Positions 142 through 8,344 of a stretch of DNA of 34,244 nucleotides are shown one piece after another. Within the stretch, counting starts at the first letter, position 1. The number at the start of each line of letters is the position of its first letter. Position numbers and translations under genes: made by a program. Location of the stretch: assembly GCA_030704765.1 (NCBI GenBank), contig JAUYDD010000067.1:1-34244 (forward strand). The letters are read 5' to 3'. Source of the DNA: Nanobdellota archaeon. GTDB taxonomy: Archaea > Nanobdellota > Nanobdellia > Pacearchaeales > GW2011-AR1. The notes under the pieces are model-generated. The model saw nothing but the letters and a program-made list of their open reading frames with translations, made no database searches and was not told the DNA's origin.

Positions 142-867
142 TCAATTTTCTTCTAATATTTTTTTCAATTTAAAAGTAAAATTTATTGTTCGTTTTATTA
201 GTTTGAATCTTGACTTAAATCCGAAATTCCAAGCACTATGGCCATGCAATCTCTTCCCAAAATATACTGGAAACCTAATTACAATGTAACCATTGGATTT
301 AGCAAGATAATAGGCATATAAGTCGAATGAAAAATCTTCAGGAGGGTTTTTTATTAATCTTAAAAAATCTTTATGGAAGATATTTGGTTGAGCATTTATA
401 TCATATAAAAATTTCTTTAAAACCAAGGTTTCAAAAATGGACATTCCAAAAGTGAAGAATCTGTCAGAAAAAGATCTTCCATATCTTTTTCCTTTAATAA
501 ATGTCTTCTGAGGATTATCATTGGATTTTATCATTTCAAAAGCTTTAATTGTGTCTTTTGGATCTGTTTGTAAATCTGCATGTGTATGGCAAATATATTT
601 TCCTTTTGCAGATGAAAATCCTTTATATACTGCAGCACCATAACCTGGTATCTTTTGAAAAACTGACCTAGCAAAAGGATACTTTCGTCTTTTTAACAAT
701 TTTTTCAATACTTCTTTTGTATTATCATTTGAATTATTATCAACAAGGATCAATTCTGTTGTCTTTAATAAATTCCCATTTAAAATCTCCTTGAATTTAT
801 CTAAAAGAAAAGGCATATTTTCAGCTTCATTATAACACGGGATTATTATAGATAATTCTTTTTTCAT
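142..867 (-). CDS. Family 2 glycosyltransferase (dolichol-phosphate mannosyltransferase-like)
   Basis: N-terminal ELSIIIPCYNEAENMP, LVDNNSNDNT, HADLQTDP: GT2 fold motifs. Confidence 0.9.
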   Translation of the reverse strand: MKKELSIIIPCYNEAENMPFLLDKFKEILNGNLLKTTELILVDNNSNDNTKEVLKKLLKRRKYPFARSVFQKIPGYGAAVYKGFSSAKGKYICHTHADLQTDPKDTIKAFEMIKSNDNPQKTFIKGKRYGRSFSDRFFTFGMSIFETLVLKKFLYDINAQPNIFHKDFLRLIKNPPEDFSFDLYAYYLAKSNGYIVIRFPVYFGKRLHGHSAWNFGFKSRFKLIKRTINFTFKLKKILEEN

Positions 868-1688
868 TTTTCAAAATACTTTTTCCATATTGGAAGAAGT
901 CTTTTTTCTTCATTTGAAATATCAGGAGGGGGAATACCATATTTTATTATGAACTCTATTTTTTCATAATCATGCAAATCATCGGGTTTTCCCCAACTAA
1001 CATATAAATCTACATCAAATATAATTGTTTTTTTATTTAATTTTTGTAAAAATTTAGGGACTGCGTCAACATAAAACTCATTGTTAATCTTATAATTTTC
1101 CTTAAACATGAGTTCAACAGAATCTATAAAATCTTTTGCTTTTTTAAAATAAAAAGTAGCTACATTTGAATGATCATAAAAAGGATCATCAGATACAGGG
1201 ATTTTGATAGAAATATCTTTTATTGTCTCCTGATCATCCTCAAGTTTGTACCATCCCCAAGCAGTTGGATTTCTCCTCAAGATCTCTCTTTGTGTAAAGG
1301 TCCATATAATGCAGCTTACATCGTCTCTTTTTTTTAATTGTTCAAACTTCTCTTCATTATATAAAAAACCACCATCACAAGATGCAATAAACAATTCTTC
1401 TTCTGGATTTATTAAGTGTTTTGCTATCATACAGCTTCCAGCTTGCCCTATTGGTGCAGGATCTACTAAAAATATAGCCTCAGGAATTTCTTTTCTTATT
1501 AACTTATCAATACCATAATCAAAATGCTCTTCTCTCATAACAAATACCCATTTGTCAGCTTTTGGAAGATCCCTTATTACTTTTATTATCATTGGAACTC
1601 CAGAAACAGATATAAGCGGTTTTGATAGCTTATAGCCTGCTTGGCTGAACCTTGTTCCTAGACCTGCCATGGGTATTAAATTCATCAT
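864..1688 (-). CDS. Sugar-phosphate nucleotidyltransferase-like protein
   Basis: NLIPMAGLGTRFSQAGYKLSKPLI signature of NTP_transferase; overlaps the GT2 gene start by 4 nt. Confidence 0.85.
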   Translation of the reverse strand: MMNLIPMAGLGTRFSQAGYKLSKPLISVSGVPMIIKVIRDLPKADKWVFVMREEHFDYGIDKLIRKEIPEAIFLVDPAPIGQAGSCMIAKHLINPEEELFIASCDGGFLYNEEKFEQLKKRDDVSCIIWTFTQREILRRNPTAWGWYKLEDDQETIKDISIKIPVSDDPFYDHSNVATFYFKKAKDFIDSVELMFKENYKINNEFYVDAVPKFLQKLNKKTIIFDVDLYVSWGKPDDLHDYEKIEFIIKYGIPPPDISNEEKRLLPIWKKYFEK

Positions 1689-2423: not shown

Positions 2424-3851
2424 CTAAGATTCTGTTATGCTTTCTTTATCTTTAATAAGATAATGATGCGATTCTGCTTTTATTGTTGCTGCTTTATCTG
2501 AAAATATATATTCTATCATTCTGCAATAATGGACTACATTTTCAAAATTATGATGTTTAGAAGGATTACAAGGAAACAAATGTCTTTTAGACCAATATTC
2601 ATCTTTTAAAAGCTCTGCACCATAAGTTATCGCATATAACTCAAAATTATTATATACTTCGCTTCCAGGAGTTATAAATAAAGGAGTATAGATAATAGTT
2701 CCAATATAATCCTGATTTTTTAATAGAAAATCTAAAGTTTCCCTAAGAGTATCGGGTGTTTCTCCAATATAGAATATTATATTGAACTTTACTACTAATT
2801 CAGGATATTTTGCAATTTCCCTAATTAATTTTTCTGCTCTTGCAATATAATATTTTGGGTCTGCTGATTTATTTATCCTTTTTAATATTTCAATGCTTCC
2901 AGACTCAAAACCTACTGTCAAAACTCTCAAACCTGCATTATAAGCTTCAGGTAAAAAGATTTCCCAATTAGAGTCAACTGAGGTTTGTGTTGACCAAGTG
3001 ATATTTTTTTCTTTCAGGATCTTTATTTGCTCTGTTGCTATTTTTGGACTCATGCCAAAATTAGAAGTCAATAATGCCAAGGTTATATTTTTTCCCCAAA
3101 GATTAACTATTTGATCTAATTCTTCTGAAAATAGAGACATAGGTTTAAAAGTGACTTTACATCCATATAAATTTTCATTTAAACAGAATTTACATTTTTT
3201 AGGACAACCCCTGCTTTCTTCAATATAAGGGGTAAACTGAGATATTTCAGGATATAAAGAATAATCCAGTTTAGGTAATTCTTTCAGTCTATCTGAAAAT
3301 TCTCTAGCTATATGAAGTTCCCCATCTTCTTTCATAAATGAAATTCCCTTGATAGAAGAATAATCTTTTTTATCTTTAGTTAATAACAGCTCCATTGTAA
3401 TTTCCCCTTCTCCATGAACCAATATATCTAAATTATTTGTTTCTTTAAAAACTGTATCTCCTAAATAAGTGCAATGTTCTCCTCCCATAACAATTAAACT
3501 AGATGGAGAATTTTTTCTTGTTATTTCTAAACATTTCAAGCTTTCTATATAATCAAATGCAGTATTATTGCTTATTCCAATAATTTTTGGAGTCTTATTT
3601 TGAAGCTCTTTTTCTATTTTAGAATAATTGTGGTCAACTGAAGTGTCTATTATTTTTACTGAAAATCCCTTGGATTTCAGATAACTAGCGATAGAGAGTA
3701 TGCCTGAGCTTATAATTGAAAACTTGAAACTTTCATCTCTAAAAAAAGCTAAAGGAGGTGTTTCTGTTAAATAAGGAGGGTGGATAAACAAAACATCATA
3801 ATCATATTTATCTTTAATGGAATTTTCATCAATCAGGTTAGGGGTCATCAT
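2424..3851 (-). CDS. B12-binding-domain radical SAM protein
   Basis: Cobalamin-binding-like N-terminus (DVLFIHPPY, SYLKSKGFSVKIIDT) and radical SAM motif ESRGCPKKCKFC. Confidence 0.9.
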   Translation of the reverse strand: MMTPNLIDENSIKDKYDYDVLFIHPPYLTETPPLAFFRDESFKFSIISSGILSIASYLKSKGFSVKIIDTSVDHNYSKIEKELQNKTPKIIGISNNTAFDYIESLKCLEITRKNSPSSLIVMGGEHCTYLGDTVFKETNNLDILVHGEGEITMELLLTKDKKDYSSIKGISFMKEDGELHIAREFSDRLKELPKLDYSLYPEISQFTPYIEESRGCPKKCKFCLNENLYGCKVTFKPMSLFSEELDQIVNLWGKNITLALLTSNFGMSPKIATEQIKILKEKNITWSTQTSVDSNWEIFLPEAYNAGLRVLTVGFESGSIEILKRINKSADPKYYIARAEKLIREIAKYPELVVKFNIIFYIGETPDTLRETLDFLLKNQDYIGTIIYTPLFITPGSEVYNNFELYAITYGAELLKDEYWSKRHLFPCNPSKHHNFENVVHYCRMIEYIFSDKAATIKAESHHYLIKDKESITES

Positions 3852-4051: not shown

Positions 4052-4684
4052 TTAAATCAAAGGGTATTTTTTTATAAGTTTTAAACTATCATCCTTGTCA
4101 TCTACTAAATAAACATTAAGGGAAATAATATTATAATTTCCTTTAGGACATAAGTCTTTTATTTTATTAAATAAAATTTCAAATTTATTATTATCGATTG
4201 TTGCAAGAGAAATATGCGGTTTAAATATATTTCCAATGTAAGGAAATCCATATTTGATGGTGTTTTTTCTTTCTATATCCCCTAAAGATTCATAAGAATC
4301 TTTATATCTTTTAATTATTATGGGATTTCTAAAAGATTGCAGATGATCTATTACTTGCTTTTGTATTCTTCTTATCATATCTACATTTTCTTCTATAATA
4401 TTACACGCCAAGGTAATTTTATTTATGTTCTTTTCTTTAAAAATAATCCAATCAGAAATTGCTATTTGTATTTTATTTGTATCTTTTTTAATTTTATATA
4501 TCAAATCTTCTAATTCCTTATCCCATTCAGATATATCTAAAAAATCTGCATGATATATTGAAAGATGAGGTTCATCATCTAAATATAATTGATTTCCTAT
4601 CAAAGATTTTATGATTATTTTTAATCCTTTTATTTTACTAGATATAATCTTATCAGGTTCTAATAATATGCCATAGGTTACCAT
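4052..4684 (-). CDS. 2H phosphoesterase / 2'-5' RNA ligase-like protein
   Basis: Two HxS motifs: PHLSIYH and PHISLAT. Confidence 0.7.
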   Translation of the reverse strand: MVTYGILLEPDKIISSKIKGLKIIIKSLIGNQLYLDDEPHLSIYHADFLDISEWDKELEDLIYKIKKDTNKIQIAISDWIIFKEKNINKITLACNIIEENVDMIRRIQKQVIDHLQSFRNPIIIKRYKDSYESLGDIERKNTIKYGFPYIGNIFKPHISLATIDNNKFEILFNKIKDLCPKGNYNIISLNVYLVDDKDDSLKLIKKYPLI

Positions 4685-4727: not shown

Positions 4728-5366
4728 TCAATTGTTTTGAAAATTTTTTAGTATCCTCCTTTTTTGTTCTTCAGGACCTATATAATCTGCATGACATTCT
4801 TTCAAGTAAAAATAAATAGGTTCAAAATGAGGTATACTAATCTTAAACCATTCTTTCATTGAAATCCCTAAGGAATGTCCCAATGCTGTTCTTAGAACTA
4901 CGTTATGACTACATATGGCTATAGATTTATCAGGATAATTTTTTAAACCTTGGATAAAATTTAAATAACGATTGAGAACGTCCTGACTATTTTCTCCATT
5001 TGGAAATCTCGGGTCTTCGCCTCTTTTCCATGCATCAAATAATTGAGGATATTTTTCTTGCGCTTGTTTTAAATATAACCCATCAACATCACCATAATCG
5101 ATCTCTAAAAGATTAGAATCTGTTATTATTTTATTTTCTGTTAATAGTTGTAATGTCTGTATGCATCTTTTTAATGGAGAAGAAATAAATAAAGTACATC
5201 CAGCTATTCCTTTTTTAGTTTTTTCTGTGGAATCAGGAGACGAAGGCATTATGGAAGGATCCATTCTACCTAAAAATTTTACACCTAAATCTTTATTAAG
5301 AATATTTCCTCCGGTTTCAAGATGTCTTAAAAAAACTAATTTCTTCTCTAAATTTTCTGTTTTCAT
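4728..5366 (-). CDS. Histidine phosphatase superfamily protein
   Basis: LVFLRHLETGGN, SSPLKRCIQT, EIDYGDVDG, ICSHNVVLRT. Confidence 0.85.
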   Translation of the reverse strand: MKTENLEKKLVFLRHLETGGNILNKDLGVKFLGRMDPSIMPSSPDSTEKTKKGIAGCTLFISSPLKRCIQTLQLLTENKIITDSNLLEIDYGDVDGLYLKQAQEKYPQLFDAWKRGEDPRFPNGENSQDVLNRYLNFIQGLKNYPDKSIAICSHNVVLRTALGHSLGISMKEWFKISIPHFEPIYFYLKECHADYIGPEEQKRRILKNFQNN

Positions 5367-5369
5367 TTT

Positions 5370-7883
5370 TTATAAATTTTTTAATATTTCCTTAATCTGA
5401 TTGTCAGTTAGTTCTATATAAAGCCTACTATTTTTAGTTAAAATAAATCTTATTGGTTCAAAATCAGGGATATTTAGTTTATACCATTCTTTCATTGGAA
5501 TTTTTAAATAACTTCCTATTAAACATCTTAAAACAACATTATGGGTGCAGAGGGCTATCTTGTTGTTTTTTATATTTTTTATATTTTTTAAAAAACTATA
5601 GAGTCTAAGTAAAACATCTCTTTGGTTTTCTCCATTTGGAAACTTTGGATCGTTGCCAAATTCCCATTCGTCTATAATTTTTGGATAATTTTTTATTAAA
5701 TAATCCAAATCTTTTCCATCTAATTCTCCGTAATTTATTTCGTTTAAACGATTATCGAGAGTTATATTCTTTTCCGTTAATAATGAAAGGGTGTTTTTGC
5801 ATCTTAAAGATGGGGAAGAGAAAAATATTTCATAGTCAGATAGGATATTTTTTAGATTATTTATTTCTTTTTTATCAGGATAAATTAATTCAGGGTTTGA
5901 TTTTTGCCCGATAAATTGATTTTCATAAGCTTTTGTTTTTACATGCCTTAGAAATATTATCTCTTTATTAGAATTGTAAAAATAATCTTTAAATTGAGAT
6001 TCATAATCAGATAAAAAAAATTCAATATGTTTTAATATATTTTTTATAGAATCGTAGTTTCTTCTTTTTTTAATTTTTATTAAATCGTTTATAAATTTTT
6101 TATGTAATTCTTTATTTTTTGGAAAAATTTTAAAATACGCATCCATAGCTTCATTAATATCATAATCTTTATTTTGCCTATAGTATAATTTTAATAAATT
6201 AGACATCAAGAAACGCATAATATGATAAGAAAATTCTATCCTGTCCCTTGAATCCATTAATTTATAATCTTTTTTTTCAATAACCTTGTTTTTTTGGATA
6301 ATATATTTTCTATAAGATAATTTATTTTCTTTTATTTCAGAAAGATATTCTTTAGAACTTCTTCTAGAATCAAAAAAATTAGAAGGTTGCAAATGATAGA
6401 CCTTATATAATTCAGACATAGATTTCTTAAAAAAAATCCCTGAATTTTGCCAATCATAACAAGTAAAAGGGCTTTTTATACAATGGTCAATATGGCTTTT
6501 GATATCGTATAGCATTATATGAAAGACAATATTGTCTTTGTTGAATTTTAACGGGCCTAAAGAAGGATTTAATATGACATTATAACCATATTTTGATTCT
6601 ATTTCTTTTTTTATTTTTTCAAAATTTTTAATAACAGACTCGAATTTGTCTTTAGATAATTCATCTAAAATTAATACAATATCAACATCATTTATACCTT
6701 CTATTCCTGAATATTTTGAAAAAGAACCAACAATATTTCCAGATTGTATAAAATCTAAATTTTCTGTTAAATCTCTTATTTTTTTAATAATATCTTTTCT
6801 AAGTTCATTTTCAATATTCCTGTATCTTGAGCTAGTTTTTAATTCTAAGAAAGAAGTTATGGGATCGTCTGATGATAAGATACCTGAAGATGAAACTATA
6901 TATTTTGCATTTATTTTTCCAATATTTGTTGGTTTAACACCTCCATCAAATATTATCTCAAAGTTGTATTTTTTCTTGAATCTATTCAATCTATTTACTT
7001 TTTCTATTGATTCAGTATTAAATATCTGTCCGGATTTTCCAAGTTCATCAATACCCATTACTTGAACAAAATCTATATAAGGAATGTATTTTATTATATC
7101 CTCTATTTTTGAATCTGTTTTTAAACATAATCCTACTTTCTTATTTAAAGACCGGCATAATCTTATTACATCGCTTATATTTTCATCTATCTCAATATGA
7201 AAAGTTATAGAATTTACATTTTTGTATAATTTCTTTATCCAGACTGAAGGATTTTTTGACATTATATGAAGTATTTTCTTAATTACCCAAGCCTTATTTA
7301 TCTCCTTAATTAAAGAAAGATCTATTTCAGGTGCTGAACTATTAAATGATTTATCTATTAAATCTATATGGACAAAATCAGCATAATATCTTATTCTAGA
7401 ATATATCTGATTAATGTCTTTATTTTTATTTAAATAAACAGCTATGCCTACTTTTTTAACAAAATCAAAAGTAATATTTCTATGTGCTGTATAACTTAAC
7501 ATAAAAATTATTGCAGAGGTAACAAATCTTAAAGTTGCGTAACCCAGGGGGATTTTTTCCCTTAATACAGCAATCAAGCCTAAATTAAGAATAAAAGCAA
7601 TTGTTGCTATAGCTAAAAATATAATGAAAGTCCTTCTATTTTTTGATTTTGGAACATGAAAATTAAGTCTTGCATTTAATATAAATCCTAAAGTTACTCC
7701 TATTATAAAACCTATGATAACTTTTAATATAAATGGTATATTATAAACTAATAAATATTTTGCTATAATAACCTCTGTTCCTACTGCAATAAGACCTATA
7801 ATTATATAATTTATAAGATATTGGAACCTATATCTTATAAATCTTAAATTTTTTATTATATTTTTTATATAAGAGGTTACCAT
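5370..7883 (-). CDS. Multidomain fusion: GtrA-like membrane domain + ribulose-phosphate 3-epimerase-like + pol-beta-type nucleotidyltransferase + histidine phosphatase
   Basis: GtrA-like N-terminal TM helices; HIDLID...FHIEID...IIFDGGVKP...IVSSSGI (RPE-like); GSFSKYSGIEGINDVDIVLIL (GS...DxD NTase); IFLRHVKTKAYENQF...SSPSLRCKNT...CTHNVVLRC (histidine phosphatase). Confidence 0.85.
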   Translation of the reverse strand: MVTSYIKNIIKNLRFIRYRFQYLINYIIIGLIAVGTEVIIAKYLLVYNIPFILKVIIGFIIGVTLGFILNARLNFHVPKSKNRRTFIIFLAIATIAFILNLGLIAVLREKIPLGYATLRFVTSAIIFMLSYTAHRNITFDFVKKVGIAVYLNKNKDINQIYSRIRYYADFVHIDLIDKSFNSSAPEIDLSLIKEINKAWVIKKILHIMSKNPSVWIKKLYKNVNSITFHIEIDENISDVIRLCRSLNKKVGLCLKTDSKIEDIIKYIPYIDFVQVMGIDELGKSGQIFNTESIEKVNRLNRFKKKYNFEIIFDGGVKPTNIGKINAKYIVSSSGILSSDDPITSFLELKTSSRYRNIENELRKDIIKKIRDLTENLDFIQSGNIVGSFSKYSGIEGINDVDIVLILDELSKDKFESVIKNFEKIKKEIESKYGYNVILNPSLGPLKFNKDNIVFHIMLYDIKSHIDHCIKSPFTCYDWQNSGIFFKKSMSELYKVYHLQPSNFFDSRRSSKEYLSEIKENKLSYRKYIIQKNKVIEKKDYKLMDSRDRIEFSYHIMRFLMSNLLKLYYRQNKDYDINEAMDAYFKIFPKNKELHKKFINDLIKIKKRRNYDSIKNILKHIEFFLSDYESQFKDYFYNSNKEIIFLRHVKTKAYENQFIGQKSNPELIYPDKKEINNLKNILSDYEIFFSSPSLRCKNTLSLLTEKNITLDNRLNEINYGELDGKDLDYLIKNYPKIIDEWEFGNDPKFPNGENQRDVLLRLYSFLKNIKNIKNNKIALCTHNVVLRCLIGSYLKIPMKEWYKLNIPDFEPIRFILTKNSRLYIELTDNQIKEILKNL

Positions 7884-8344
7884 TTTTTGTTTTTAAAGAC
7901 GAAAATTTTTATACTAAAAAAATTAATTAGAGTTGTTATAGGAATAATGGATGCTGTTGATATAAGGGGATTTAATCCGATATAATCTACTAAGATTTTT
8001 AATAAAAGATTCATAATGCCTAAGGTGGTAAGATTCACTAAAAAATATTCTATAAGATATCTTACAGATTTGTATTTTGAGTTAAATGTCAACAATCTAT
8101 TGAAAAAAAATCCTACAAATGCCCCTATTACAAAAGCTATTGTAGTAGATAAGAGATAATAGATATTTAAAAAGTGATATAACAGTAAAAATATAATGTA
8201 ATATAATAGTGTTGTTTCTAACCCTATTAAACAAAACTTTAAAAACTGCTTAGTTACTTCTCTTTTCAATAACCTCATAGAAGATATTTCCTTAGAATTA
8301 TTTATAAAGATTGTTGCAATCAAAAAAACTATGTACCACCACAC
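7877..8344 (-). CDS. GtrA family membrane protein (start may be the internal Met at 8278)
   Basis: FLKFCLIGLETTLLYYIIFLLLYHF...FVIGAFVGFFFNRLLTF, typical GtrA pattern. Confidence 0.75.
   Translation of the reverse strand: MWWYIVFLIATIFINNSKEISSMRLLKREVTKQFLKFCLIGLETTLLYYIIFLLLYHFLNIYYLLSTTIAFVIGAFVGFFFNRLLTFNSKYKSVRYLIEYFLVNLTTLGIMNLLLKILVDYIGLNPLISTASIIPITTLINFFSIKIFVFKNKKW

Follow-up and report, generated by a model that had tools for sequence, protein, structure and literature searches.

A four-domain protein of a Nanobdellota archaeon appears to join two neighbouring genes of a putative surface-glycan cassette

A contig of a Nanobdellota archaeon (NCBI GenBank assembly GCA_030704765.1, JAUYDD010000067.1) carries an open reading frame (ORF) in which a GtrA membrane domain, a ribulose-phosphate 3-epimerase (RPE)-like barrel, a pol-beta-type nucleotidyltransferase (NT) and a histidine phosphatase (HP) follow one another within 837 amino acids. 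Is this a single genuine protein, and what might such a combination do? We addressed both questions for the 34,244 nucleotides of this contig that were analysed (referred to as the window) by comparing sequences, gene neighbourhoods and predicted structures.

The ORF is an intact, genuine four-domain protein. It begins with ATG, runs from position 7883 down to 5370 including the stop codon and contains no internal stops (Table 1). A search of related genomes identified full-length orthologues of 832 aa in G391 (49% identity, L047:6865-9363) and of 833 aa in G463 (47% identity, L078:8043-10544). Both genomes come from the family of the window genome but from other genera, and the named records for these loci (L091 and L085) read Pacearchaeota. 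Half of the residues are thus identical in three independent assemblies, which rules out a frameshift or an assembly join. AlphaFold2 modelled the whole 837 aa with a pLDDT of 93.2 and a pTM of 0.83. A preliminary description had assigned the four domains to this one ORF from the letters alone; the two orthologues exclude separate genes joined by a frameshift, and Pfam together with the AlphaFold2 and fold matches bears out all four assignments. The gene is rare, being present in 3 of 181 genomes of the family, and in all three it is located in a glycan cassette.

Table 1. Features of the fusion protein, its neighbours in the window and one further cassette member.
Feature	Coordinates	Strand	Evidence
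Fusion GtrA-RPE-NT-HP, 837 aa	5370..7883	-	ORF, Pfam, orthologues, AlphaFold2 model
GtrA domain, residues 1-143, four long helices	7455..7883	-	Pfam and model
RPE-like barrel, residues 144-350	6834..7454	-	Pfam, ligands, Foldseek
Pol-beta nucleotidyltransferase with C-terminal helical part, residues 351-638	5970..6833	-	Alignment, Pfam of relatives, fold
Histidine phosphatase (branch 1), residues 639-837	5373..5969	-	Pfam, invariant residues, fold
Stand-alone GtrA	7877..8344	-	Pfam 7.6e-21; overlaps fusion start by 7 bases
Second histidine phosphatase, duplicate	4728..5366	-	43% identical to the phosphatase domain of the fusion
2H phosphoesterase, two HxS/T motifs	4052..4684	-	Constant cassette member
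B12-binding radical SAM enzyme	2424..3851	-	Pfam B12-binding and Radical_SAM
Sugar nucleotidyltransferase (NTP_transferase type)	864..1688	-	Profile matches; constant cassette member
GT2 resembling polyprenyl-phosphate sugar synthases	142..867	-	Glycos_transf_2 3.5e-21; ArnC-type NCBIfam 2.3e-12
Unnamed ~200-aa protein	L086-L111 cassettes, e.g. L101:13444-14034		Sequence comparison

Both outer domains are clear members of their families. GtrA_DPMS_TM matched residues 26-139 (3.1e-13; 50.4 bits against a cut-off of 26.1), and the model contains the four long helices of a GtrA protein (residues 2-45, 51-74, 79-108 and 115-138). Flipping of polyprenyl-phosphate sugars is a proposal even for the GtrA members that have been studied (PMC11127046, PMC7389260). 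At the other end, His_Phos_1 matched residues 642-806 (7.4e-24; 84.9 bits against a cut-off of 21.7), and the catalytic set R646, H647, R694, E715 and H781 is invariant in all fusions and in the aligned NT-HP proteins. CobC (3hjg) was among the top fold matches of the full-length model; the NCBIfam equivalog for the alpha-ribazole phosphatase CobC scored 79.7 bits, below its cut-off of 162.9. Histidine phosphatase domains were also seen fused to an SRP54-type (FtsY-like) GTPase (L054:3226-5016) and to DNA gyrase subunit A at its C-terminus (L055:1185-4478); these two fusions are possibly real and possibly artefacts of draft assembly.

The RPE-like barrel retains the active-site framework of an epimerase, with changes around the substrate. 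It matched Ribul_P_3_epim above the curated cut-off (residues 160-335, 4.5e-23), and H172, D174, H206 and D313, the metal and acid-base ligands, are invariant in all fusions and in the aligned GtrA-RPE proteins. The cassette domain shares with RPE and AlsE all four metal ligands and the fold (Foldseek TM of 0.82 to RPE structures, full-length model), whereas it differs from them in being fused to GtrA, in having lost the PSILS loop and the HxDxMDG motif of housekeeping RPE (it reads GVAIYA/GIAVYL and HIDLIDK instead) and in its position in the RPE tree, where the cassette domains group together as a single clade, separate from every housekeeping RPE included (100/99). The fusion scored 76.9 bits with the NCBIfam rpe equivalog TIGR01163, below the cut-off of 212.6. 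Because PSILS and MDG are missing, the substrate may not be plain ribulose-5-phosphate; judging from the altered loop, it may be a derivative and not a free pentulose phosphate. The three fusions form one clade within the cassette RPE clade (95/91) and, in weaker agreement, nearly one clade in the NT tree (94/91). Other RPE fusions occur in related archaeal genomes. Housekeeping RPE is joined to an RpiB-type (LacAB_rpiB) isomerase at L022:1033-2109, L027:1504-2568 and L040:1432-2505, in genomes that all belong to a single family within the same class (confirmed by Pfam for L022, by eye for L027 and L040), and RPE is joined to phosphoglucose isomerase at L053:3456-5366 and to a zinc alcohol dehydrogenase at L026:1456-3177.

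The NT domain was harder to place, as the single-sequence profile matches of residues ~351-638, to pol-beta or CBASS-cyclase families, were weak. NTP_transf_2 was matched by 21 of the 29 aligned NT relatives (best 4.2e-7), and an AlphaFold2 model built from the 29-domain alignment reached a pLDDT of 94.8. Its closest structures were AAD(9) (6sxj, VIA Z 11.8) and AadA (5g4a, Z 11.5), matched over 214-217 residues that span the whole domain, catalytic and helical parts alike; plain Foldseek matched the same adenylyltransferase families with weak E-values. The motifs are G386-S387, D399-x-D401, G443-P-x-K446, H455 and W478. G386, D399, D401, H455 and W478 are constant across fusions and aligned relatives, and S387 is kept in all that were checked except the L047 fusion, which has Thr. 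AadA O-adenylylates a sugar hydroxyl and uses Glu87 in catalysis (PMC6065190). The cassette NT resembles AadA and AAD(9) in its predicted whole-domain fold and GS...DxD motif, and the Trp in its DWxRS stretch recalls, by eye, the region of the sugar-stacking Trp112 of AadA. It differs in that identity is 8-13%, in that it sits in glycan cassettes and not as a resistance gene, and in that an equivalent of Glu87 appears not to be conserved: in the corresponding strand, equated by strand order, there is no conserved third carboxylate or other invariant acid, and His455 is invariant. NT activity is therefore not assured. The modelled fold points to an AadA-like transfer of a nucleotidyl group onto a sugar hydroxyl as the predicted reaction. 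We rejected a phage or plasmid origin, as no NT match was found in viral contigs or plasmids and no NT-HP match in phages. Archaeal stand-alone NT homologues (L052, L080-L082) lie among unrelated genes and beyond a well-supported branch of the NT tree, and their surroundings gave no functional clue.

What is joined in the fusion became clear from bacteria, where its halves are adjacent, often overlapping genes for a GtrA-RPE protein (~355 aa) and an NT-HP protein (~480 aa). Such split genes occur in SAR11 and other Alphaproteobacteria, Actinomarina, Flavobacteriales, Verrucomicrobia, Planctomycetota, Spirochaetia and Neomarinimicrobiota. The bacterial GtrA-RPE protein usually ends in ...LQTSSRYE, and its gene often overlaps that of NT-HP by 4 bases. 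Across the same junction the archaeal fusion reads LKTSSRYRNIENELRKDI without interruption, and the LKTSSRY motif, C-terminal in the bacterial proteins, is still present there. The preliminary description knew of no protein with this combination of domains. Papers that could be searched contained nothing on the combination or on the cassette (subscription papers were outside the search, and an earlier description may exist), and to this extent the statement stands; the architecture is not unique, however, given the two orthologues and the wide occurrence of the halves as neighbours.

With the NT alignment as query, a scan of GTDB genomes gave at least 27 loci in many phyla, all counts being lower bounds as the scan relies on exact peptide matches. 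The typical gene order is AraD, GtrA-RPE, NT-HP, 2H, NTP_transferase, an optional GtrA, GT2 and an unnamed 200-aa protein. When we compared 28 loci (the window, two from Pacearchaeota and 25 others, with several contigs ending early), NTP_transferase, 2H and GtrA-RPE were each present in 25, GT2 in 22, the 200-aa protein in 21 and AraD in 20; a stand-alone GtrA is found in several bacterial cassettes. An AraD match was present in 12 of 13 cassette genomes, in 9 of them above the cut-off of NCBIfam NF006047. The gene lies on another contig in two Verrucomicrobia, a member of Spirochaetia and a planctomycete, and in the planctomycete G789 it adjoins GtrA-RPE on a separate contig. Across phyla the 200-aa protein shares 40-61% identity with the copy in G391 and has ~30 invariant residues. 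No Pfam or PDB relative was found at useful scores, and its pattern HR.N...E.D.R...H.P recalls glycerophosphodiesterases by eye only. A large multi-pass protein adjoins the cassette in the two Pacearchaeota loci, one with a weak YfhO match. In other lineages the same partners are fused differently, as 2H-NT-HP (L087) and NT-HP-NTP_transferase (L090); these fusions suggest consecutive steps. Cassettes are sporadic, occurring in 2 of 200 relatives of a SAR11 genome, and this pattern together with the spread over phyla suggests horizontal transfer. The gene set with GtrA-RPE, NT-HP, AraD, 2H, NTP_transferase and GT2 is new, in that we found no description of it in searchable papers.

The archaeal window matches this layout in part. 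Downstream of the fusion lie the duplicate phosphatase, the 2H enzyme, the radical SAM enzyme, an ORF without assignment, NTP_transferase and GT2, in that order, and the stand-alone GtrA lies upstream. GT2 and NTP_transferase are 60% and 38% identical, respectively, to the L047 (G391) copies, and 2_5_RNA_ligase2 was matched by 12 of 12 2H members (best 1.7e-14). The window genome's copy of the 200-aa protein is on another contig, C92. Beside it lies a methyltransferase which, by eye, looks similar to that of the Flavobacteriales cassette L092, and Pfam assigns both to methyltransferases. No AraD was found in the draft genome to which the window belongs (88% complete). Cassette membership of the B12-binding radical SAM enzyme, which could tailor the sugar, is uncertain; none was seen in the other cassettes. 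Contig C92 also carries a second radical SAM-like gene (L113:11273-12856). A 148-aa ORF between the radical SAM gene and NTP_transferase (1719-2165) has no Pfam match and is possibly a remnant. Only tRNAs and 5S rRNA were returned when the window was scanned for RNA families.

AraD is L-ribulose-5-phosphate 4-epimerase, and together with an RPE-like epimerase it points to D-ribulose-, D-xylulose- and L-ribulose-5-phosphate. We favour, at somewhat better than even confidence, the reading that the fusion unites GtrA-RPE and NT-phosphatase, which are adjacent genes in a mobile surface-glycan cassette, and that the cassette converts pentulose 5-phosphates into an activated five-carbon residue and delivers it to the membrane. 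The class of pathway has good support. We infer the sequence of the reactions and also their product, which is probably an unusual five-carbon sugar for building the cell surface. In the proposed scheme the RPE-like domain and AraD would interconvert the three pentulose phosphates, NT would add a nucleotidyl group to a sugar hydroxyl as AadA does, and the phosphatase would next strip the terminal phosphate. The 2H enzyme would open or trim the phosphodiester, and NTP_transferase and GT2 would make a nucleotide-sugar and a polyprenyl-phosphate sugar. The GtrA domains would anchor the complex at the membrane and help to flip the product for a transferase on the outside, and fusion of the enzymes would channel labile keto-sugar intermediates. 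Among the cassette genes we saw no isomerase or mutase that would yield a pentose 1-phosphate. There are precedents for single steps: a ketose phosphate can be nucleotidylated directly, yielding CDP-6-D-fructose (PMC10918830), and a fused phosphatase is known to act on pentoses that have been loaded on polyprenyl phosphate (PMC11127046).

The preliminary description had offered a lipid-linked pentose pathway, as in mycobacteria, as an analogy. The gene context (AraD, a GT2 like polyprenyl-phosphate sugar synthases, a second GtrA) lends it support, but the chemistry differs from that of the mycobacterial arabinose route, and neither a PRPP transferase nor DprE-type genes turned up among the neighbours examined. 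Pentofuranose systems and mycobacterial DPA synthesis place a pentose on a polyprenyl carrier, remove the 5-phosphate with a phosphatase, diversify the sugar with an epimerase and flip it with a small membrane protein, to all of which the proposed route may be likened. The three-component system of Citrobacter youngae, for example, has a polyprenyl phosphoribose synthase fused to its phosphatase, a flippase and a GT-C (PMC11127046). These systems use PRPP, a membrane phosphoribosyltransferase, a phosphatase of the HAD or an unrelated family and a flippase of the MATE or SMR type, whereas the cassette has an AadA-like NT, a histidine phosphatase, AraD/RPE, NTP_transferase, GT2 and GtrA. The GtrA/GtrB/Gtr and CsbB/GtcA/YfhO glycosylation systems share with it a GT2 like polyprenyl-phosphate sugar synthases and a GtrA-family protein but take a hexose from an ordinary NDP-sugar and have no RPE, AraD, NT-HP or 2H (PMC7389260). 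The CDP-6-D-fructose/CDP-6-D-glucitol pathway of Campylobacter jejuni likewise turns a ketose phosphate into a capsule building block with a nucleotidyltransferase (PMC10918830), yet consists of only two enzymes, one of them a reductase, and lacks epimerases, an AadA-like domain, a phosphatase, 2H and GtrA. By analogy, then, the cassette resembles the pentofuranose and CDP-6-D-fructose routes in purpose; no synthase of either type was recognised in it.

Other readings of the same genes were weighed. NTP_transferase might put CMP on the terminal phosphate of the pentulose (CDP-5-L-ribulose type), with the product entering a teichoic-acid-like glycan in phosphodiester linkage and NT, HP and 2H serving in editing or capping. 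A ketose-phosphate cytidylyltransferase that makes CDP-6-D-fructose is known from C. jejuni (PMC10918830), and AraD and the RPE-like domain would supply the pentulose 5-phosphates; we nevertheless consider this route unlikely, since neither a reductase nor a polyol-phosphate polymerase was seen as a constant cassette member and GT2 instead resembles polyprenyl-phosphate sugar synthases. A distinctly unlikely alternative replaces a phosphomutase by relocating the phosphate: NT would nucleotidylate a free hydroxyl of the ketopentose 5-phosphate, the phosphatase would remove the 5-phosphate, and 2H would cleave the phosphodiester and leave a phosphate at a new position for NTP_transferase. The constant set of NT-HP, 2H and NTP_transferase would fit consecutive steps on one substrate, as would their mutual fusions and the AadA-like fold, but the scheme is a purely chemical inference, an invariant His occupies the strand of AadA's catalytic Glu87, and 2H enzymes are known mostly to act on cyclic or 2'-5' phosphodiesters.

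That the fusion merely gives a reduced genome a ribulose-5-phosphate epimerase and a general phosphatase is very unlikely. In its favour, the RPE metal ligands are intact and plain RPE genes occur in many relatives from the phylum, but the altered substrate loop and separate clade set the cassette domain apart from housekeeping RPE, and a gene so rare yet always found in a glycan cassette is hard to reconcile with central metabolism. A signalling or anti-phage role, with NT as a CBASS-like oligonucleotide cyclase and 2H as its phosphodiesterase, was rejected as extremely improbable, because the matches to oligonucleotide cyclases are weak (NCBIfam 7.5e-4, PADLOC 2.8e-5; 19.2 bits with the CBASS cyclase family NF041117 against a curated cut-off of 200), the whole-domain fold is nearer to AadA/ANT, and the genes that recur beside it are of the sugar-epimerase, sugar-nucleotide and glycosyltransferase kinds and not of the effector kind.

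Read as two joined genes of a glycan cassette, one odd archaeal ORF leads to a gene set conserved in archaea and in seven or more bacterial phyla, including SAR11, whose members are among the most abundant marine cells. The core enzymes of the cassette are uncharacterised in the papers searched, and its domain fusions provide a testable list of enzymes acting in sequence. There is a slim chance that NT, phosphatase and 2H together constitute a new logic of sugar activation without a phosphomutase, common to bacteria and archaea by way of one mobile cassette and used for a residue so far unobserved in surface glycans. If the cassette does make an unusual five-carbon glycan donor, it would represent an additional pathway of envelope biosynthesis and a case of an antibiotic-resistance fold in biosynthetic use.
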